The notes below the pieces were generated by a model, which saw only the letters and a list, made by a program, of their open reading frames with translations, ran no database searches and had not been told where the DNA came from. Positions 2,515 to 40,114 of a DNA stretch of 41,723 nucleotides are shown piece by piece. The first letter of the stretch is position 1, and every line of letters starts with the position of its first letter. The translations under genes were made by a program, and so were the position numbers. Source of the DNA: a virus; IMG/VR virus record IMGVR_UViG_3300025151_000006, positions 1-41,723 of that record. One strand, written 5' to 3'.

Positions 2515-4253
2515 TGAAAACTATTGATATTGAAAATCTTATCGATCCAGATAACCTTGCCGTAGAGATCGCAGACAAGTGGAGACTATGGCATCAGTTA
2601 CGTCACCATTGGGTTGAGGGTACTAAAGAGTTACGTAACTACCTTTATGCTACCGATACAACCACAACAGCTAACGCAATCCTTCCTTGGTCTAATACAA
2701 CGACTACACCAAAGATAACACAGATTGCAGATAACCTTCACGCTAACTACTTTGCTACTTTGTTTCCTCAACAGAACTGGATGCGTTGGGAAGCTGACTC
2801 ACGAGATGCTGCAGTAAAAGCTAAACGTGACATCATTCAGTCTTACATGGAAAACAAGGTAAGACAGTCTGACCTAATGAACACAGTATCTAATCTTATA
2901 CAGGATTGGATTCTTTACGGTAACTGTTTCGCTATGGTTGAGTGGGAAGACGGTTATACTACAAAAGAAGATGGCGAGTTTATACCGAAGTATGTAGGAC
3001 CAAGAGTTGTACGTATCTCACCATACGATATTTGTTTTAATCCTACGGCTGCATCCTTTGATGATTCACCAAAGATAATCAAAAGCATTAAGTCTTTAGG
3101 TGAGATCAAGCGTATGGTAGATGCTGATCCTCGTAACAAGTACCTTAACGGTGTATTCGAGAAGATGATGTCTGCTCGTAAGAATGTGAGAGGAACAGAT
3201 GGTCACTTCGAGAAAGCTGAAGGTTTTATTGCTGATGGTTTCACAAGCATAGAGCAGTACTACGAATCAGACTACGTAGAGATTATGACATTCTACGGTG
3301 ACATCTACGATCAAGAGTCTGGTGAATTAATGTCAGACCGTGTGATTACTATCGTAGATCGTGCTCACGTACTAGACAATCAAGAGAATCCATCATGGAT
3401 GGGTAAGGCTCCTATCTTCCATAGTGGGTGGCGTAACCGTCCAGACAACCTATACGCAATGGGTCCACTAGATAATCTTGTAGGAATGCAGTACAGGATT
3501 GATCACCTAGAGAACCTCAAGGCAGATGTCTTTGATCAGATCGCATACCCAATACTTAAAGTAAAAGGTGATGTAGAGGACTTCGACTTCGAGCCTGGAG
3601 CTAGAATCTACATGGGTGAAGAAGGTGATGTAGGGTACATGGCTCCTGATGCTACTGCACTAAATGCTGACCTTCAGATACAAATCTTAGAGAATAAGAT
3701 GGAAGAGATGGCAGGTGCTCCTAGACAAGCTATGGGTATTCGTACTCCAGGAGAGAAGACTGCCTTCGAAGTACAGACACTACAGAACTCAGCGTCACGT
3801 ATCTTTGAACACAAGGCTGCACACTTCGAGCGTACATTCATAGAACCTATGTTGAATGCAATGCTTGAGGTAGCTAGACGTTACATGAATCGTGCTGACA
3901 TAGTAAGAGTATCTGATGAAGACTCAGGTGTTCTACAGTTCTTAGAAATTACTAGAGAAGATATTACAGCAAGTGGTAAGATAGTTCCTGTAGGAGCAAG
4001 ACACTTTGCTGAACGTGCTCGTAGAGTACAGAACCTGATTCAGTTGTCTGCAGTAAAAGCACAAGACCCGACTGTAGCACCACACCTATCAGGTAAAGAA
4101 CTAGCTCGTATCATTGCATACGAATTAGGTGAGCCAACACTATACGGTGAGAACATAACCGTAACTGAGCAACTAGAAACTCAGAAGATGGCTCAAGAAG
4201 CAGAAATGCTTAACGAAGAAGAACTAATGGCTGCACAAGAAATGGGGATTTGA
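2514..4253 (+). CDS. Portal protein (T7-like head-tail connector)
   Basis: 579 residues, similar in length to T7 gp8-type connectors. Recognisable segments are the N-terminal WRLWHQLRHHW...LRNYLYATDT region and the central block PRQAMGIRTPGEKTAFEVQ, typical of the Head-tail_con family. It forms the dodecameric ring at the capsid vertex, through which DNA enters and to which the tail attaches. It starts on the last base of the terminase stop. The tail is acidic and Met/Glu-rich. Order terminase-portal-scaffold-capsid supports the call. Confidence 0.92.
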   Translation: MKTIDIENLIDPDNLAVEIADKWRLWHQLRHHWVEGTKELRNYLYATDTTTTANAILPWSNTTTTPKITQIADNLHANYFATLFPQQNWMRWEADSRDAAVKAKRDIIQSYMENKVRQSDLMNTVSNLIQDWILYGNCFAMVEWEDGYTTKEDGEFIPKYVGPRVVRISPYDICFNPTAASFDDSPKIIKSIKSLGEIKRMVDADPRNKYLNGVFEKMMSARKNVRGTDGHFEKAEGFIADGFTSIEQYYESDYVEIMTFYGDIYDQESGELMSDRVITIVDRAHVLDNQENPSWMGKAPIFHSGWRNRPDNLYAMGPLDNLVGMQYRIDHLENLKADVFDQIAYPILKVKGDVEDFDFEPGARIYMGEEGDVGYMAPDATALNADLQIQILENKMEEMAGAPRQAMGIRTPGEKTAFEVQTLQNSASRIFEHKAAHFERTFIEPMLNAMLEVARRYMNRADIVRVSDEDSGVLQFLEITREDITASGKIVPVGARHFAERARRVQNLIQLSAVKAQDPTVAPHLSGKELARIIAYELGEPTLYGENITVTEQLETQKMAQEAEMLNEEELMAAQEMGI

Positions 4254-27031: not shown

Positions 27032-27526
27032 TTAGAATCCTACTGCTTCGTTCTCTTTGACGTACTCTTCAAGTTCAAGAACTTTGACACCAACCAAACT
27101 TGTACGACTGTACTGTTGACCATCACTGCCAGTAAAAGTAGTGACTAGGTTGGTGCACTCAGCAAGAGTTCCGTTACCAATTACACCCATGTCTTCAGTC
27201 CAAGCATTACCGTCCTTGTCTGTAACCTTTGGTGCTCCACCTGCCTGTGGAATCTCAGTACCATCCTTCTTTGTAACTTTGTGTGGACGTACAAACTTTA
27301 CTACAATCTCACCATCAATCATACGATTCTGGTTAGGTTGCTTTTGAGAACCTGCATCCTTGAGAGACTTCATACCCTCTTTGTCTAGGATTTGATTGAC
27401 AGTGTACGCACCATCAGACTTCTCGTATGCTCCACCGTATCCTGTTAGATCACGGTTCTCTTCGTTGAGTCGAGGCCATTCGATTTGACCTACAGTTTTT
27501 ACTTCTTTGTATATTGTTTTAGGCAT
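27032..27526 (-). CDS. Single-stranded DNA-binding protein (gp2.5-like)
   Basis: 164 residues from the ATG at 27526, which has AAGGAAGG six bases upstream; the ATG at 27553 falls in the promoter start region and lacks a site. Beta-rich body (GEIVVKFVRPHK...GNAWTEDMGVIGNGT...) and an acidic tail ending in Phe (EEYVKENEAVGF). A terminal acidic-plus-Phe tail is the partner-binding feature of T7 gp2.5. First gene behind a dedicated promoter (27550-27588). Confidence 0.78.
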   Translation of the reverse strand: MPKTIYKEVKTVGQIEWPRLNEENRDLTGYGGAYEKSDGAYTVNQILDKEGMKSLKDAGSQKQPNQNRMIDGEIVVKFVRPHKVTKKDGTEIPQAGGAPKVTDKDGNAWTEDMGVIGNGTLAECTNLVTTFTGSDGQQYSRTSLVGVKVLELEEYVKENEAVGF

Positions 27527-27549
27527 GGTTATCCTTCCTTTTATTAGAG

Positions 27550-27588
27550 CCATACTTATATGTTACTATATAATTTTATTCGTGTCAA
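27550..27588 (-). promoter_or_regulatory. Promoter of family 1 before the SSB gene
   Basis: On the minus strand, TTGACA (27588-27583), a 17-base spacer and TAACAT (27565-27560), which begins the conserved block TAACATATAAGTATGG (27565-27550). The same 16 bases occur before the 40-residue gene/ThyX (32211-32196) and, with one change, before the small terminase on the other strand. It lies just behind the DNA polymerase stop. Confidence 0.75.
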
Positions 27589-32236: not shown

Positions 32237-32443
32237 CTATTCTTTATGTTTTTCTTTTAAATTAAATAGTGATGCTAATTCACCCTGCACATCGTCTATC
32301 TTGAATGCTCTATACAGATCATCTAAACCGTATTGATTGTAGATAGTTACATTTATCTCATCCTTACACAAGGTACAGTAGTATCTGTCCATCCTCACAT
32401 CTTTGAACGTTGCGTCTGCTCTGTTACAACAATAACATCTCAT
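32237..32443 (-). CDS. Small zinc-ribbon-like protein
   Basis: 68 residues. C3, C5 and C6, then C23 and C26 (CTLC) form a probable zinc site in the first 26 residues; the rest is acidic helix. A strong AAAGGAGAG site overlaps the last operator half-site of promoter A upstream. Similar tiny zinc proteins in phages are often regulators, but no family is recognised. It ends just before the -35 region of the ThyX promoter. Confidence 0.72.
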   Translation of the reverse strand: MRCYCCNRADATFKDVRMDRYYCTLCKDEINVTIYNQYGLDDLYRAFKIDDVQGELASLFNLKEKHKE

Positions 32444-32452
32444 GTCTCTCTC

Positions 32453-32544
32453 CTTTAAGTATATTTGTTTAGAGTATTATTATACTTAAAACAATAATAC
32501 TTTAAGTAATAAGATAGGGTATCACAACTAAACTTATTTGTCAA
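32453..32544 (-). promoter_or_regulatory. Promoter A with operator-like dyads (copy of 36841-36945)
   Basis: Minus strand: TTGACA (32544-32539), 17-base spacer, TACCCT (32521-32516). Downstream are a perfect dyad TACTTTAAGTA (32498-32508), an inverted repeat AGTAT-N4-ATACT (32473-32486) and a half site merging into the AAAGGAG of the 68-residue gene. The block 32453-32524 is a diverged direct repeat of 36841-36925. Confidence 0.72.
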
Positions 32545-32759
32545 GCCACCTCCTTTAAATTAAATATGAAAGCTTTCTTTATCTCCTTCAACTCCTCTTT
32601 TCTTATGTGCATATTGAATATCTCCAAGTGGTTACGAGCCTCTCTTATGTTTAGTTTCTTTGTTAGAATCTCGAATGTACCATCATGTTTCTCTGCTATG
32701 ATCACGTAAGAGTTAGGTAAATCCTGGATTTCCATACCGAATGTAGTTCTGTTGTTCAT
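32541..32759 (-). CDS. Small hypothetical protein
   Basis: 72 residues; beta-rich start (YVIIAEKHDGTFEILTKKL) and basic amphipathic helices after. Its stop sits in promoter A, so it ends one transcription unit. It overlaps the GTG-start membrane gene by one base (TAATG). No family recognised. Confidence 0.68.
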   Translation of the reverse strand: MNNRTTFGMEIQDLPNSYVIIAEKHDGTFEILTKKLNIREARNHLEIFNMHIRKEELKEIKKAFIFNLKEVA

Positions 32760-32899
32760 TATGTTACCTTCAATATATGTGCTATAAAAATTATTACGAA
32801 TACAATTACCAGTAATCTACCAGTGATAATAGTTTGGTGTGGCGGCATCGGTATCGTCAAGAAAATAATCAATGCCGCTATCCAAAGTAGTACGTCCAC
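32759..32899 (-). CDS. 46-residue two-helix membrane protein with GTG start
   Basis: Frame with GTG start at 32899, overlapping the previous stop (TAGTG), with GGAGG seven bases upstream. Two membrane segments (MDVLLWIAALIIFLTIPM and GRLLVIVFVIIFIAHIL) joined by PPHQTIIT. The good ribosome site and exact overlaps on both sides make it a likely gene. Holin-like size, but it sits in the early arm. Confidence 0.65.
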   Translation of the reverse strand: MDVLLWIAALIIFLTIPMPPHQTIITGRLLVIVFVIIFIAHILKVT

Positions 32900-33384
32900 T
32901 ACATAACCTCCTCTCTCTTACACTCTTTGTAGTACTCGTAGTCACCATCTATGTCATACTCAAACCTCAAGTCCGAAGGTATATCTGCGAACCACCATTG
33001 ATCATCAAAGTCTACCTCGTATCTGTTGTACTTACCGTTATCGAAAAGACCGATAAAGATATACGAGCTATTGTAGAATGAGGCTGATAGTCCTACACCT
33101 AACCTCTCCATTGCCGCCTCGTATGCAGCGATAGGTGGACCGTTCTTAGTCTCGAATGTGATATGCAACCACCAATCTCCTTCCTCTAATTCGGGTGGAC
33201 TACACTCAATGCTGTAAGCTTCCGCACTTGTACCCCACATTTCTACTGCTTTCTCGTACTCCCATGTTCCAATAGGATTAAGATATTCAAGTAAAGTACC
33301 ATCATCACAGGCTTTTTCGATAGCTGTTATGACTTCGATACCACCGCTGATAGTTAAGATATTCTGACACACACTAGACATCAT
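32899..33384 (-). CDS. Api92/YubB-like ferredoxin-fold protein
   Basis: 161 residues. The N terminus (NILTISG...), the LNPIGTWEYEKAVEMWGTSAEAY segment and acidic WW pair in the tail resemble the DUF1281/Api92-like ferredoxin-fold family of phages and plasmids, a fold without known activity. The C-terminal third is very acidic and Tyr-rich. Strong GGAGAGAGGAAG site before a double Met. It overlaps the previous gene by 11 bases. Confidence 0.72.
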   Translation of the reverse strand: MMSSVCQNILTISGGIEVITAIEKACDDGTLLEYLNPIGTWEYEKAVEMWGTSAEAYSIECSPPELEEGDWWLHITFETKNGPPIAAYEAAMERLGVGLSASFYNSSYIFIGLFDNGKYNRYEVDFDDQWWFADIPSDLRFEYDIDGDYEYYKECKREEVM

Positions 33385-33658
33385 CTTCCTCTCTCCTTTG
33401 CGTTACATTTGGGAAGGCATGGTACAACTTCCATCGGGTTTTACGTAGTGCTCTTTCTGTAGAGGCATAGCAATCACCATCCATCTCAGCTAATTCGTTA
33501 TCCCAATCGTAAAGAGCACTCCATAATTCTTTTATTGCATCTTGTTGTTTCATAGTTAGCTTGTCAAAAGACGTATTCAAGATATTATCTTTTCTTTCTT
33601 TCTCTGTCTTCCATTTCTTTGCTCGTGCTTCTTCTGCTTTTGTTGGTATGTATGGCAT
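33374..33658 (-). CDS. Small basic helical protein
   Basis: 94 residues, charged and helical (KAEEARAKKWKTEKERKDNILN...TERALRKTRWKLYHAFPN). A good AAAAGGAG site. It overlaps neighbours at both ends. No motif recognised; may be a nucleic-acid-binding or host-takeover protein by composition only. Confidence 0.65.
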   Translation of the reverse strand: MPYIPTKAEEARAKKWKTEKERKDNILNTSFDKLTMKQQDAIKELWSALYDWDNELAEMDGDCYASTERALRKTRWKLYHAFPNVTQRREEDDV

Positions 33659-33876
33659 TAGTTTATCTCCTTTTCAAATACACAATTTACACCTATATAA
33701 TTTAAATTATCTAGACCACCTTCATTCCAATTTATCTTTAGACTTGTAATCTTAGCAGGACAATCTTTCAACCACTGTCCTATCTTATTGTTTACGGATA
33801 GTTCTTGTTTATCGGTTACATCTTTACCCTTCATAATTATATACTTACCACCGCTAAACATATCACCATAGCTCAT
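33658..33876 (-). CDS. Small hypothetical early protein
   Basis: 72 residues (67 if the second Met is used). Alpha/beta with GGKYIIMKGKDVTDKQEL and SLKINWNEGGLDNLNYIGVNC. Starts four bases after the stop of the upstream gene and overlaps the next by one base. Unknown. Confidence 0.63.
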   Translation of the reverse strand: MSYGDMFSGGKYIIMKGKDVTDKQELSVNNKIGQWLKDCPAKITSLKINWNEGGLDNLNYIGVNCVFEKEIN

Positions 33877-33880
33877 TTTC

Positions 33881-34252
33881 TTAGTACCCCATTGCTTCTA
33901 GTGTTTGTTCGAATTGTTCTTGATGCTTAGTTAAGTTGACTACTACAACACCATTTAACATTGTTAGTGCTACAGTATCACCTACTTCGGCTACCTTTTT
34001 TAAATTAGTTATTGATATACGTCTGTCTCCTCTCGACTTTGTTTTATAGAAATTTATTTTACATTCATCTAAGTTAAATATTCTTGCATCTATTATTTCA
34101 TTATCCCCTGCTTCCATCTTGGAGTAGTCTACCCCTAGATACAATGCAAGCTTCCTGACTGTAGCGTTTGCATCTATGATACACTTATTCAACATGGTTG
34201 ACGTTAGCGTTATTGTTGCTGTTGGTTCAGGTAGTTTAGATATATTAGTCAT
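33881..34252 (-). CDS. Hypothetical early protein
   Basis: 123 residues, no membrane segment. It looks like a folded alpha/beta protein (IIDARIFNLDECKINFYKTKSRGDRRISI and VGDTVALTMLNGVVVVNL). Strong AAAAGGAG site. It overlaps the membrane protein gene upstream by eight bases. No family recognised. Confidence 0.68.
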   Translation of the reverse strand: MTNISKLPEPTATITLTSTMLNKCIIDANATVRKLALYLGVDYSKMEAGDNEIIDARIFNLDECKINFYKTKSRGDRRISITNLKKVAEVGDTVALTMLNGVVVVNLTKHQEQFEQTLEAMGY

Positions 34253-34430
34253 TGTGTACTCTCCTTTTGATTATCTGTAAAACTACAAGTATTACATACA
34301 CCTGCAATTCAATAAAGTAAATAGTCATTACGTTTATTTCTTCTTTGTGTGTCCCAAATGTCACACCTATAGCTATGATAAAAGGTAATGCCAAGTAACA
34401 AGTTATAGGTGCGAACAAATGAAATATCAT
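34245..34430 (-). CDS. Small two-helix membrane protein
   Basis: 61 residues with two hydrophobic stretches (IFHLFAPITCYLALPFIIAIGVTF and MTIYFIELQVYVILVVLQII) and a basic end KRRVHND. GGAG eight bases before the ATG. Early inner-membrane protein, unknown role. Confidence 0.65.
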   Translation of the reverse strand: MIFHLFAPITCYLALPFIIAIGVTFGTHKEEINVMTIYFIELQVYVILVVLQIIKRRVHND

Positions 34431-34431
34431 T

Positions 34432-34569
34432 TCAGTACTCCAGTAGCATTCTCATAAAGTTTAACATCTGCTCCTCATATTCAAAGACAACTTCCCATTC
34501 GTTATCTTTTGTTGCATTCCACAAATGGTACTTACCATCTGGATAGCTTATAATAAATTTATATATCAT
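34432..34569 (-). CDS. 45-residue hypothetical protein
   Basis: MIYKFIISYPDGKYHLWNAT then an acidic helical end. TAATG overlap with the upstream gene and one base to the downstream ATG. The first strands with PDGKYH look like a small beta hairpin. No family. Confidence 0.6.
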   Translation of the reverse strand: MIYKFIISYPDGKYHLWNATKDNEWEVVFEYEEQMLNFMRMLLEY

Positions 34570-34730
34570 TAGAACATCATCTCCCCTTGCTCGTTGTATG
34601 GACTTCTAAAGTAATCTTTAGCCATACATATTTGGTACTCATTCGGTTCGTCAAACTCAGGCTCGACTTGGTATTCTTTCAACTCAACTAATCCGAATTG
34701 ATCCATAAAAAACTCTAACTCTTTATCCAT
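34569..34730 (-). CDS. 53-residue acidic hypothetical protein
   Basis: Very acidic and aromatic (MDKELEFFMDQFGLVELKEY, VEPEFDEPNEYQICMAKDYF). Linked to both neighbours by TAATG overlaps. Acidic mini-proteins of early phage regions often mimic DNA or inhibit host enzymes, but nothing here proves this. Confidence 0.6.
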   Translation of the reverse strand: MDKELEFFMDQFGLVELKEYQVEPEFDEPNEYQICMAKDYFRSPYNEQGEMMF

Positions 34731-34885
34731 TACTTAAACTCCTTCGTTGTGCTCATAATTAACTCTAGCATCATCTTTGCAGTAGGTAAATCTGATTTAT
34801 CATCTCGTATTGCTTTCATTATTGCTTGCCTACAAAACTCTATTGTATCTTTTATTATCAATATCTTTTCATCTTCAGTGTACAT
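34730..34885 (-). CDS. 51-residue hypothetical protein
   Basis: Helical, MYTEDEKILIIKDTIEFC then a Lys/Met-rich end. It has TAATG overlaps at both ends, between the 80-residue gene and the acidic 53-residue gene. Unknown. Confidence 0.6.
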   Translation of the reverse strand: MYTEDEKILIIKDTIEFCRQAIMKAIRDDKSDLPTAKMMLELIMSTTKEFK

Positions 34886-35127
34886 TATATTGTATTCCTC
34901 TCTTGCCAATTTAATTCTAGTTGATCCATATCAAACTCGCTAGGTGCTATTCGATAATTCTTAACTACTCTTGTTTCTCTCATAGTAAGACTAGGTAATC
35001 TTTTTTCAAGCTCTTTATATCCTTCTGTTGTAAATCTTGCCCAAATACTAGGAACTGTTACCCATTTACCACACTTCTCTTTGAAGTCATAAACAATTGC
35101 CCACGATTTATATTCTCTACTAGTCAT
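34885..35127 (-). CDS. Small hypothetical early protein
   Basis: 80 residues, mixed charge with several Trp (SWAIVYDFKEKCGKWVTVPSIWARFTTEGYKELEKRLPSL). GAGG upstream. Helical C-terminal half suggests a small winged or helical domain. Not recognised. Confidence 0.62.
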   Translation of the reverse strand: MTSREYKSWAIVYDFKEKCGKWVTVPSIWARFTTEGYKELEKRLPSLTMRETRVVKNYRIAPSEFDMDQLELNWQERNTI

Positions 35128-35245
35128 TGTCTTCTACCTCGTCTTCTAGTTCAAATCTTAGGTAAACTGAATCTGGAAAATGGCTATGCAAATCAAAGTC
35201 AATTCCGTGTTCATTAAGAAAGTCTATTAATTCATTATAAGTCAT
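35120..35245 (-). CDS. 41-residue acidic hypothetical protein
   Basis: MTYNELIDFLNEHGIDFDLH then acidic tail ELEDEVEDND. Strong AAGGAG site at good spacing; overlaps the 80-residue gene start by eight bases. Unknown function. Confidence 0.6.
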   Translation of the reverse strand: MTYNELIDFLNEHGIDFDLHSHFPDSVYLRFELEDEVEDND

Positions 35246-35258
35246 TTTAGTTTTCTCC

Positions 35259-35480
35259 TTAAATATCTACTTCTTGTTTGTGTTCTATGTTTTTCCATAC
35301 TGTAATATTGTATTGTGGTTTTTTATATAGTGTTCTCAATTCTTTTAGAAAGTCAATTAAATTATCTTCATAGCCTTCTAGTGCAATCTTATCAGTCTCT
35401 ACTCTGAAGTGATGCTTGTAAACGTCTTTCTCTTTAATATAGTCTACTCTCTTTGATACATTTACAGTGTATATTGTCAT
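35259..35480 (-). CDS. Small hypothetical early protein
   Basis: 73 residues, alternating beta and helix (MTIYTVNVSKRVDYIKEKDVYKHHFRV, LIDFLKELRTLYKK). Good GAGGAG site. Possibly a small RNA- or protein-binding fold; no family recognised. Confidence 0.63.
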   Translation of the reverse strand: MTIYTVNVSKRVDYIKEKDVYKHHFRVETDKIALEGYEDNLIDFLKELRTLYKKPQYNITVWKNIEHKQEVDI

Positions 35481-35497
35481 TTTATTTACTCCTCTAA

Positions 35498-36118
35498 TTA
35501 ATACTTCTTAACTTTCTCTACTATAGTTGTAATACTATTTACAGTGTAACACAATCTACAATCAATGCAACGTTGACCAGTACAGTTTTGTTTATCGGTG
35601 TGTTCATCCTGCAACACGTTGTTGAACGTCTTATCAAAATGCTTTGGTGGCTTGCTCATGATATGTGACTTCTTTGGATTACTATAGATTAGTTGAAGGT
35701 TCTCTGGCTTCTCGTTGTCACGTAACCACCTAAAGACAAGGTCAACTCTCTTAGTCCATAAAGCAAACGTGCACCAAGGATTATCTTTGACGATAGCCAT
35801 TAAGTTCTCGAAGTGTTGCATGTTTATTAGTTCGCCATGTGCATTGAACCTAAACATTGCATCAGTCACTCGTGGTATCTCTTGCGGCTCTAGCGGTCTA
35901 CTCGACAACAAGTCACTATTGCGTTGTAATGATGCTTGCATGTTCTTACGATAGGTATTGAGCATAGCATGGGAATAACAATCTCCACAAATGTTTTTAC
36001 CGTCTTGTTTACCTTTGACGTGTTGCTTGTTGCAGTAGTCATTCGTAATTGTGTTTGTACTGATAGCCTTGAAACCGTCAAGTTTACCAGTCATTTTACT
36101 TATATGTACTTGTTGCAT
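35498..36118 (-). CDS. Cysteine-rich GP88-like phage protein
   Basis: 206 residues. N-terminal C29, C44 and C47 (CNKQHV...ICGDCYSHAM) and a C-terminal set C179, C184, C187, C190 (NCTGQRCIDCRLCY), plus C116. Between them is a TIM-like stretch (FRFNAHGELINM...WCTFALWTKRVDLVFRWL...LQLIYSNPKK). This resembles the GP88 and Gp37/Gp68 (DUF5131) phage families, thought to be radical-SAM-like or iron-sulfur proteins. The N-terminal spacing (C-x14-C-x2-C) differs from classical radical SAM, so function is open. Zinc binding is the alternative. AAGGGAATAAATAAA leads the ATG. Confidence 0.68.
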   Translation of the reverse strand: MQQVHISKMTGKLDGFKAISTNTITNDYCNKQHVKGKQDGKNICGDCYSHAMLNTYRKNMQASLQRNSDLLSSRPLEPQEIPRVTDAMFRFNAHGELINMQHFENLMAIVKDNPWCTFALWTKRVDLVFRWLRDNEKPENLQLIYSNPKKSHIMSKPPKHFDKTFNNVLQDEHTDKQNCTGQRCIDCRLCYTVNSITTIVEKVKKY

Positions 36119-36119
36119 T

Positions 36120-36281
36120 TTATTTATTCCCTTGTTGATTTATTTGCTGCATCAATTCATCAATCCTAGCTATAATTGGCGCATTCTTTTTTCTGTAAGC
36201 TATCTCTTTTATTTTCTCTAGCATTTCTTCACGTTCATCCCACGTTCCGAAAATAATTACCTTTTCTTCATCAATAGTCAT
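36120..36281 (-). CDS. 53-residue first gene of the leftward arm
   Basis: MTIDEEKVIIFGTWDEREEM, then helical basic EKIKEIAYRKKNAPIIARID. AAAGGAG at good spacing. First gene after the control region and overlapping the next start region by one codon base. Early protein of unknown role. Confidence 0.65.
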   Translation of the reverse strand: MTIDEEKVIIFGTWDEREEMLEKIKEIAYRKKNAPIIARIDELMQQINQQGNK

Positions 36282-36419
36282 GTTTTACTCCTTTGCTGTT
36301 GATTAATTAAGTAATCATAAAAACAGATAATGCAACAATTAATTTAAGTATTTTTAAAATAATTACTGAAAAGGTATAGTTTGTGTCTTTTATGCAACAC
36401 ATAAATGTATGCACTACAC

Positions 36420-36448
36420 ATTATAATATATACCCCATAGAACAAACA
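36420..36448 (-). promoter_or_regulatory. Possible leftward promoter with perfect TATAAT
   Basis: Minus strand: TGTTTG (36448-36443), 17-base spacer, TATAAT (36425-36420), about 140 bases before the first early gene. The -35 is poor, but a 22-base repeat (36449-36470) sits directly upstream, where an activator could bind. Confidence 0.45.
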
Positions 36449-36514
36449 CGATAGGTAAGAAGTGCTTACCAATTAATCCAATGGTATCAATTCGATAGGT
36501 AAGGATTGTTTACC
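36449..36514. repeat. Pair of 22-base repeats with inner dyad
   Basis: CGATAGGTAAG followed by AAGTGCTTACC at 36449-36470, and the same 22 positions with changes at 36493-36514 (GGTAAGGATTGTTTACC core). Each has GGTAA...TTACC arms; starts are 44 bases apart, close to four helical turns. Confidence 0.8.
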
Positions 36515-36537
36515 TTTTAAGTATTGCCACTACAAAG

Positions 36538-36600
36538 TAGTTTAACGTTAAACTATCTAGGGTAAATCCGTTTAGTATTAAATAGTTTAGTATTAAACTA
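36538..36600. repeat. Three 18-base operator-like dyads
   Basis: TAGTTTAACGTTAAACTA at 36538-36555 is a perfect 18-base palindrome. TAGTTTAGTATTAAACTA at 36583-36600 has the same arms with a changed centre. A third, partly overlapping copy of GTTTAGTATTAAA begins at 36570, 15 bases before the one at 36585. Confidence 0.85.
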
Positions 36601-36656
36601 GTTTGTGACCACATAATATACGTCAAGAGTGCTGACCTATTACTGTTTGTGATCAC
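36601..36656. repeat. Pair of 12-base repeats 44 bases apart
   Basis: GTTTGTGACCAC at 36601-36612 and GTTTGTGATCAC at 36645-36656. The 44-base offset equals that of the 22-base repeats. Confidence 0.7.
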
Positions 36657-36662
36657 GTTCTT

Positions 36663-36736
36663 GGTTTGTTCCAGGCAGGGGTGTCTTTGTTTACGGTTTG
36701 TTCCTGGGGTGGCAAGGGGGGTTTGGGGGGTACCCC
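36663..36736. repeat. GGTTTGTTCC pair, G-runs and GGGGTACCCC palindrome
   Basis: GGTTTGTTCC at 36663-36672 and 36695-36704. Four G-runs lie at 36678-36681, 36706-36709, 36716-36721 and 36725-36730 on the plus strand, able in principle to form a G-quadruplex with one long loop. GGGGTACCCC at 36727-36736 is a perfect palindrome. By far the most G-rich stretch of this A/T-rich genome. Confidence 0.75.
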
Positions 36737-36840
36737 TGTACTGTACAATACAACATAAAATTATCTCAGAAAAAGACGAGGCAATGCAACAAGCACAAGC
36801 GAATAGAATCTAGGTGGCGGTGTACACTTGTAGTACCTTA

Positions 36841-36945
36841 CTTTAAGTATCTTTGTTTAAAGTATAATATAATACTTATAACACAATACTTGTAAGGTAT
36901 ATTACTTAAAGTATATAGGGTATCATAAAGAAATCTTGTAGTCAA
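36841..36945 (-). promoter_or_regulatory. Promoter B with operator-like dyads (copy of 32453-32544)
   Basis: Minus strand: TTGACT (36945-36940), 17-base spacer, TACCCT (36922-36917). Around and below the start are TACTTAAAGTA (36903-36913), AAGTAT-N6-ATACTT (36860-36877) and TACTTTAAGTA (36839-36849). It points at the early arm with a leader of over 600 bases. Confidence 0.72.
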
Positions 36946-36979: not shown

Positions 36980-37019
36980 TTGACAATCACCCCTAAACCA
37001 TGTTAACATATAAGTATAG
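36980..37019 (+). promoter_or_regulatory. Promoter of family 1 before the small terminase
   Basis: TTGACA (36980-36985), 18-base spacer, TAACAT (37004-37009) starting the block TAACATATAAGTATAG (37004-37019), one change from the two minus-strand copies. It lies 33 bases before the small terminase ATG and could start the whole rightward arm. Confidence 0.75.
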
Positions 37020-37051
37020 GGGAAGGAAACAATGTTTCTAAGGAGATAACC

Positions 37052-37594
37052 ATGTCTATGTATAGCCTATCACAACTAAAGACAGATAACGGAATAATAA
37101 GAACCAAGAGTTTATTCTACGAATTATCTTATGATGATCCTGACTTTGCTTTGTTTACTCTCAAAGAAGAAGACATAGTGATGCCTAACGGTAAGTCAGC
37201 TACTGCTCTAGGTAAGTTATACATAGCCTTTGCAACAATGGACCCTACAGAGTACCAGTTCGCTAACGCAGTGTTTGGGAGTTGGGAAGTATGGGAAAAG
37301 ATGCAAACAACTGTACCACTCAAGAAACATATCGATAAGTGGCGCAGAGAAGCAGAGGTCAAACGTAAGTCAATGGCCTTTGAGTCTGTAGTAAAAGAAA
37401 TACAAGAAGGTGGGCGAAGTAGTTTTACTGCAGCTAAGTTCCTGATCAACGAGGAATGGAAGTCTAGAGAAGACGGAAGAACAGCCCGAAAAGAAAAGAA
37501 CGCTAAAGATAAATCTACATCTCAAGAAGCTTTTGAGAGAGCAGGTGTAAACGATGATCTTAAAAGATTAAAAGATCAAGGTCTAATTAATTAG
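37052..37594 (+). CDS. Terminase small subunit (probable)
   Basis: 180 residues. RTKSLFYELSYDDPDFALFTLKEED near the N terminus, a helical centre with WEVWEKMQTTVPLKKHIDKWRREAEVKRKSMAFESVV, and a charged tail (TARKEKNAKDKSTS). This pattern occurs in small terminases of marine T7-like phages, which bind the packaging start and recruit the large subunit. AAGGAG site seven bases before the ATG. First gene of the rightward arm, next to the repeat-rich control region, a natural place for a packaging signal. It is 5 kb from the large subunit in circular distance. Confidence 0.75.
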   Translation: MSMYSLSQLKTDNGIIRTKSLFYELSYDDPDFALFTLKEEDIVMPNGKSATALGKLYIAFATMDPTEYQFANAVFGSWEVWEKMQTTVPLKKHIDKWRREAEVKRKSMAFESVVKEIQEGGRSSFTAAKFLINEEWKSREDGRTARKEKNAKDKSTSQEAFERAGVNDDLKRLKDQGLIN

Positions 37595-39724: not shown

Positions 39725-40114
39725 ATGGCAGATAAAAGATTATGCAGAAGTTGTAATCAAGTAAAATCTTTAGATAGGTTTAGAAAAAATAAGTATTGTT
39801 CAGATGGTGTTACTCATCAATGTAAGGATTGCCATTACGTCTCACAAAGAAATGGTGAACTAAAAAGAAACTTTGGTATATCCTACGCAGAATACTTAAT
39901 AATGTTAGATGAACAGCAAAATCAATGCGCTATATGTGCAACAGATGCTTCTGAGTTTGATAAATCTTTTGCAGTAGATCATTGTCACTCAACAGGTAAA
40001 GTTAGAGGTTTATTATGTTGGCACTGCAATACAAGTATTGGTAAGTTTAAAGACGATGTAGAATTATTACAACGAGCTATAAAATACTTACAGATACATA
40101 AGGAAGATAAATAA
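39725..40114 (+). CDS. Endonuclease VII-like nuclease inserted in the fibre module
   Basis: 129 residues. C68/C71 and C98/C101 make the zinc site; VDHCHSTGKVRGLLCWHCN holds D85, H86 and N102, the catalytic set of T4 gp49 (endonuclease VII). C7/C10 and C33/C36 form a second N-terminal zinc site. It cuts DNA, either junctions or, as a free-standing homing-type enzyme, a target site. The start has no clear ribosome site and the stop overlaps the fibre start (TAATG), so it fits tightly but looks foreign among structural genes. Codons are A/T-rich compared with neighbours. Confidence 0.86.
   Translation: MADKRLCRSCNQVKSLDRFRKNKYCSDGVTHQCKDCHYVSQRNGELKRNFGISYAEYLIMLDEQQNQCAICATDASEFDKSFAVDHCHSTGKVRGLLCWHCNTSIGKFKDDVELLQRAIKYLQIHKEDK

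Follow-up and report, generated by a model that had tools for sequence, protein, structure and literature searches.

The window, by which we mean the whole stretch of 41,723 bases that was analysed, comes from an IMG/VR virus record and belongs to a phage of the Cobavirinae (Zobellviridae) close to Roseobacter phage CRP-4. It shares 91% identity with CRP-4 in the terminase (TerL) and 81% in the portal, and its primase is 81% identical to the CRP-4 protein as against 48–55% to those of CRP-5, CRP-6 and ICBM2. The Cobavirinae, within the Zobellviridae, include CRP-4, CRP-5, ICBM1, ICBM2 and SIO1; the traits of the group that are seen in the window are a B12-dependent RNR, ThyX, a T7-like primase and polymerase, divergent early and late arms, and the absence of a phage RNA polymerase gene. 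Leftward early and replication genes run from about 36,300, and rightward structural genes from 37,052. Cobaviruses have no RNA polymerase of their own (PMC6775973, PMC6918029) and the host polymerase must therefore read their promoters. They are abundant marine phages.

Two leftward promoters, A and B, each stand at the head of an array of short sites, with transcription start positions predicted from the −10:

32516–32544, minus strand: promoter A, an exact pattern match, with TTGACA at 32539–32544, 17 nt and TACCCT at 32516–32521
32498–32508, minus strand: site 1 of array A, TACTTAAAGTA, at about +2 to +12
32465–32494, minus strand: central dyad of array A, TTGTTTTAAGTAT..ATACTCTAAACAA
32453–32461, minus strand: last site of array A, TACTTAAAG
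36917–36945, minus strand: promoter B, an exact pattern match, with TTGACT at 36940–36945, 17 nt and TACCCT at 36917–36922
36903–36913, minus strand: site 1 of array B, TACTTTAAGTA, at about −2 to +9, across the predicted start
36854–36883, minus strand: central dyad of array B, TGTTATAAGTAT..ATACTTTAAACA
36839–36849, minus strand: last site of array B, TACTTAAAGTA

An earlier note on this DNA had described the two blocks as direct repeats, and its counts of identical positions (23 of 25 at one end, 11 of 11 at the other) are reproduced exactly. It had also claimed two leftward promoters with a common array at the start site; the pattern TTGACW-N17-TACCCT does occur with zero mismatches only at A and B throughout the window. 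The −35 of promoter A overlaps the stop codon of an upstream 72-aa gene, and at the other end of array A the last site runs into the ribosome-binding site of a zinc protein, as had been noticed. In most lineages TACCCT is followed by site 1 (about −2 to +12) and then by a module of ~55 bp, CTTAAAGTA-nn-TGTGTTATAAGTAT-n-ATACTTTAAACA-nn-ATACTTAAAG, of which A has one copy and B, depending on the relative, one or two.

The operator had been proposed to be TACTTWAAGTA. Perfect copies are indeed found at both arrays (32498, 36839 and 36903), and a late gene contains a stray one at 3553; with one mismatch allowed there are seven matches where 2.3 are expected, a number reached in 2 of 100 shuffles. 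The unit that best describes the arrays, however, is not this dyad but the asymmetric 9-mer TACTTAAAG within the ~55-bp module. Counted over 11 arrays from distinct lineages, it has 23 copies and is present in all 11, whereas the commonest 9-mer in shuffled arrays has at most four. In the window, and likewise in the complete genome of CRP-4, A and B are the only places where three or more near-matches to TACTTAAAG cluster within 80 bp; no such cluster is found in CRP-5, ICBM2 or ICBM1.

In a genome of 60% AT, few stretches are as AT-rich as arrays A and B (84% and 82%), and this composition is compatible with their being replication origins, at which a promoter would be followed by a very AT-rich tract, a host transcript would prime the T7-like replisome and the repeats would bind an initiator. 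A T7-like primase and polymerase are present, and T7-like replication has been proposed for cobaviruses (PMC6775973). AT-richness alone, however, requires neither a conserved 9-mer module nor a likeness of the two arrays within a genome, and CRP-5 and ICBM2 share the replisome but lack such clusters of sites; we regard an origin function as improbable.

Scans of viral contigs yielded 29 loci with the zinc gene, 67 with the primase and 47 stretches with the promoter and first site. With the exception of L029, a very weak match, all relatives that have both the zinc gene and its upstream DNA show promoter A and its array ahead of the gene. In CRP-4 (MK613346), promoter A lies at 1648, with its TACCCT at 1671, and promoter B at 39777, with its TACCCT at 39800; B is also kept in metagenomic relatives. 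Wherever a relative with both A and B was found, both elements are kept while the flanking DNA differs. Promoter and array are 70–92% identical between lineages; when L012, L013, L120 and CRP-4 are compared with the window, the 100 nt upstream of A are 37–55% identical as against 70–79% for promoter and array. In the B region the values are 45–60% for either flank and 73–85% for promoter and array. TACCCT shows no change at A or B in these lineages, which is partly a result of selection, since later searches demanded it. The genes that lie between A and B are almost all exchanged from one lineage to the next; those for the zinc protein, the 72-aa protein and a hydrophobic protein of 46 aa persist, and the three are confined to array-bearing genomes. 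The earlier note had reasoned that its idea would fall if the dyads were lost from relatives that keep the coding genes; instead, the arrays are kept in relatives in which much of the coding sequence differs. The observation of A and B is confirmed as real and conserved. That the arrays might be selfish or recently duplicated AT-rich repeats with no regulatory role would agree with the varying number of modules at B, but their position is fixed on the promoter in all lineages, they are conserved above their flanks and they are confined to two promoters, so that we give this very little credence.

Within a genome, A and B resemble each other more closely (mean score 69.3) than they do between genomes (62.0; 6 of 720 permutations, over six lineages, with only about six independent lineages carrying both). 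This likeness suggests one shared factor, or gene conversion. Such a factor need not be coded by the phage. A host regulator might bind the sites, or a host factor might read the unusual −10, and the phage would in this way time its expression to the state of the host. In Alphaproteobacteria, promoters often have no −7T and depart from the rule known for E. coli (PMC8407463). In addition, three more distant contigs (L144, L148 and L150) have TTGAC-N17-TACCCTAT and site 1 with different downstream arrays, so that promoter and site 1 are found in distant cobaviruses that share no array-specific gene. However, the full element has a single match among 84,980 bacterial and archaeal genomes, on a Clostridiales contig, from which it follows that the complete element is not one that hosts employ for themselves; control by a host factor seems to us improbable. 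With that one match, an origin of the element in a host or prophage was also discarded.

A further question is whether the arrays act as DNA or as RNA. The leaders could fold into a long 5′ hairpin that protects the mRNA, controls translation of the zinc gene or acts on the polymerase. Five leaders, namely both those of the window, both those of CRP-4 and that of B in L076, fold better than shuffled sequences (z −3.5 to −4.6), and in A the last site directly adjoins the ribosome site. Folding above shuffles is not decisive, though, because any DNA palindrome will fold as RNA, and the leaders of L013 and L055 fold weakly (z −1.8 and −1.0). When the hairpin was scored on 15 modules, 85.7% of cells were paired compared with 85.1% after shuffling, the covariation score was 0.030 compared with 0.024 in shuffles (141 of 500 scored as high), and there was a single G-U pair in 293 cells. 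The arrays have no match to known RNA families in Rfam. Moreover, site 1 of B begins upstream of the predicted start, and a site that straddles the start argues for action at the level of DNA. An RNA-level element is in our estimation unlikely, and the reading of the arrays as DNA sites is favoured.

We therefore return to DNA sites, and to the proposal that a trans-acting, probably phage-coded protein binds them and controls both early promoters together, which, as judged from the sequence, we think slightly likelier to be right than wrong. A and B would be duplicates of a single regulated early promoter that the host RNA polymerase reads, each with an operator array that would begin on the start site and extend 50–150 bp into the transcript. 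The protein would bind the TACTTAAAG sites cooperatively and, once bound, would shut off or gate both operons together: operon B, which would consist of small, fast-changing early genes, and operon A, which would comprise the zinc protein, ThyX, primase and polymerase. We infer the binding of a protein, repression rather than activation, the identity of the regulator and the timing of its action; activation at A and B is the alternative to repression. A site across the predicted start is in a standard position for a repressor, which counts for the operator reading, whereas the distant cobaviruses, in which promoter and site 1 are kept but the arrays that follow are different, count against it.

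Three small genes next to array A enter into the search for such a protein:

32237–32443, minus strand: 68-aa zinc protein, CxxC-x16-CxxC followed by helices, first gene of operon A
32541–32759, minus strand: 72-aa protein with a predicted strand-strand-helix-strand fold, only in array-bearing genomes
32759–32899, minus strand: 46-aa hydrophobic protein, only in array-bearing genomes

The best candidates are the zinc protein and the 72-aa protein, although for either one taken singly the role is doubtful. The zinc protein has 19 distinct relatives, 51–99% identical, in which the four paired cysteines are invariant. Its AlphaFold2 model is of low confidence (mean pLDDT 69) and a Foldseek search with it gave no PDB match below E 0.7. 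As to the earlier suggestion that the protein might control itself, its gene is always the first after A and is confined to array-bearing genomes, but self-control is not established. A profile search did not detect the protein in a 43.7-kb cobavirus record (G001, locus L150) that carries TACCCT and the first site, which weakens the zinc protein as sole required regulator and makes it a candidate, not an established one; L144 and L148 are short fragments, and its absence there therefore says little. It should be noted that CRP-4 gp06 as deposited (1832–1963) starts too late, the full zinc protein beginning at about 1760 (L092 1757–1963). The 72-aa protein is modelled with better confidence (pLDDT 79), and the only informative match in a structure search was to its own CRP-4 homologue. 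No helix-turn-helix or other known repressor scored above the cut-off among the early proteins scanned, and no recognisable repressor fold was seen among the co-conserved proteins. The product of the first late gene (37052–37594) was also considered and rejected: it occurs in phages without arrays and adjoins the large terminase in phage T5S1, for which reasons it is more likely the small terminase subunit. With two small candidates named and the two-promoter target present in CRP-4, a cultured phage, the proposal has a defined subject.

Three further features belong to the surroundings of A and B:

36700–36749, minus strand: predicted genome terminus (start of the direct terminal repeat), motif TTGTACAGTACAGGGGTACCCCCC, aligned to where the terminal repeats of ICBM1 and ICBM2 begin
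36980–37022, plus strand: late-gene promoter TTGACA-N18-TAACAT-ATAAGTATAGGGG, with one TATAAGTAT at the start
27550–27588, minus strand: promoter TTGACA-N17-TAACAT-ATAAGTATGG, before a 173-aa SSB-like gene (27032–27553)

PacBio reads served to map the terminal repeats of ICBM1 and ICBM2 (PMC6775973), whose first base immediately precedes TTGTACATACAG. The window has this motif at 36748, where it follows the −35 of B by 197 bp; in the relatives where the pattern found it, it lies 186–403 bp downstream of B. If homology is a guide, B would be separated by the genome end from the genes that it would drive, at the far end of the packaged molecule, with A internal; were the terminus at 36748, B would have access to the early genes only when the DNA is circular or concatemeric. 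A small zinc-finger regulator might then act with the TACTTAAAG arrays such that A works at once on injected linear DNA and the B programme becomes full only after circularization or concatemer formation, a combined scheme that we put forward as something of a long shot. Downstream of the predicted terminus and ahead of the first early gene, the leader has about three GGTAARCANTNCTTACCTATC-like copies (window 36434–36640), which are possibly a second operator or an iteron; similar elements are seen in CRP-4, L076, L057 and L062.

The late promoter has the same form in all array-bearing relatives that cover the region. It shares TTGACA-N17/18-TAAYAT-ATAAGTATRG with the promoter of the SSB-like gene, which we take for an SSB from its position and N-terminal resemblance; both promoters thus carry TATAAGTAT, an element related to the array sites. 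This combination occurs in 80 stretches of viral contigs compared with two for one permuted control, and about eleven of the contigs look unrelated by their flanking sequence, so that TATAAGTAT may belong to promoters more generally, and we connect it with the arrays only tentatively. The string TAAYAT-ATAAGTATRG follows promoters in the seemingly unrelated contigs L157, L159, L162, L164, L183 and L190. The early regions of CRP-5 and of the L082–L088 lineage resemble A and B in having palindromes, ATACTTAAGTAT, near an early promoter or the primase gene, as does that of ICBM2 with TTACTTAAGTA, but they have neither a TACCCT promoter nor a TACTTAAAG cluster, and the zinc gene was not found in CRP-5 or ICBM2. 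Three ATACTTAAGTAT palindromes precede the primase gene in the L082 lineage (L082 5538–5613, with homologues in L084–L086) and one lies in the CRP-5 early region (L094 38990); ATACTTAAGTAT is apparently a related but different site.

The claim that the sites are undescribed agrees with the literature searched, in which no account of them was found: a search for TACTTAAAGTA among papers available without subscription returned unrelated ones only, and the CRP-4 and cobavirus genome papers make no mention of promoters or repressors. Among known systems, the lambdoid OL and OR are similar in that two promoters of one phage carry several copies of a site for one protein and the repeated sites overlap the promoter, as expected of a repressor operator. 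They differ in that the sites of A and B are mainly downstream of the start and both promoters point the same way, and no cI/Cro-like gene or integrase was found among the genes scanned. The operators and stoperators of Cluster A mycobacteriophages (PMC9283540) are likewise asymmetric sites of 9–13 bp, at promoters and within transcribed DNA. The sites of A and B, unlike stoperators, are in both orientations and clustered at two promoters only, rather than spread genome-wide over intergenic gaps, and no two-domain repressor was found. In HK022, a repeated palindromic leader, put, heads two early operons and its RNA acts on the polymerase. A and B likewise place such a leader before two early operons but are AT-rich, have their first site across the start and show no compensatory change in RNA stems, covariation being no higher than in shuffles. 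The primary replication origin of T7 is a promoter followed by an AT-rich tract, a layout also seen at A and B, in a phage with a T7-like replication system; here, by contrast, there is a defined repeated module and the promoter is of the host type. The type of system is a known one; the sites, module and arrangement of A and B are new as far as our searches reach.
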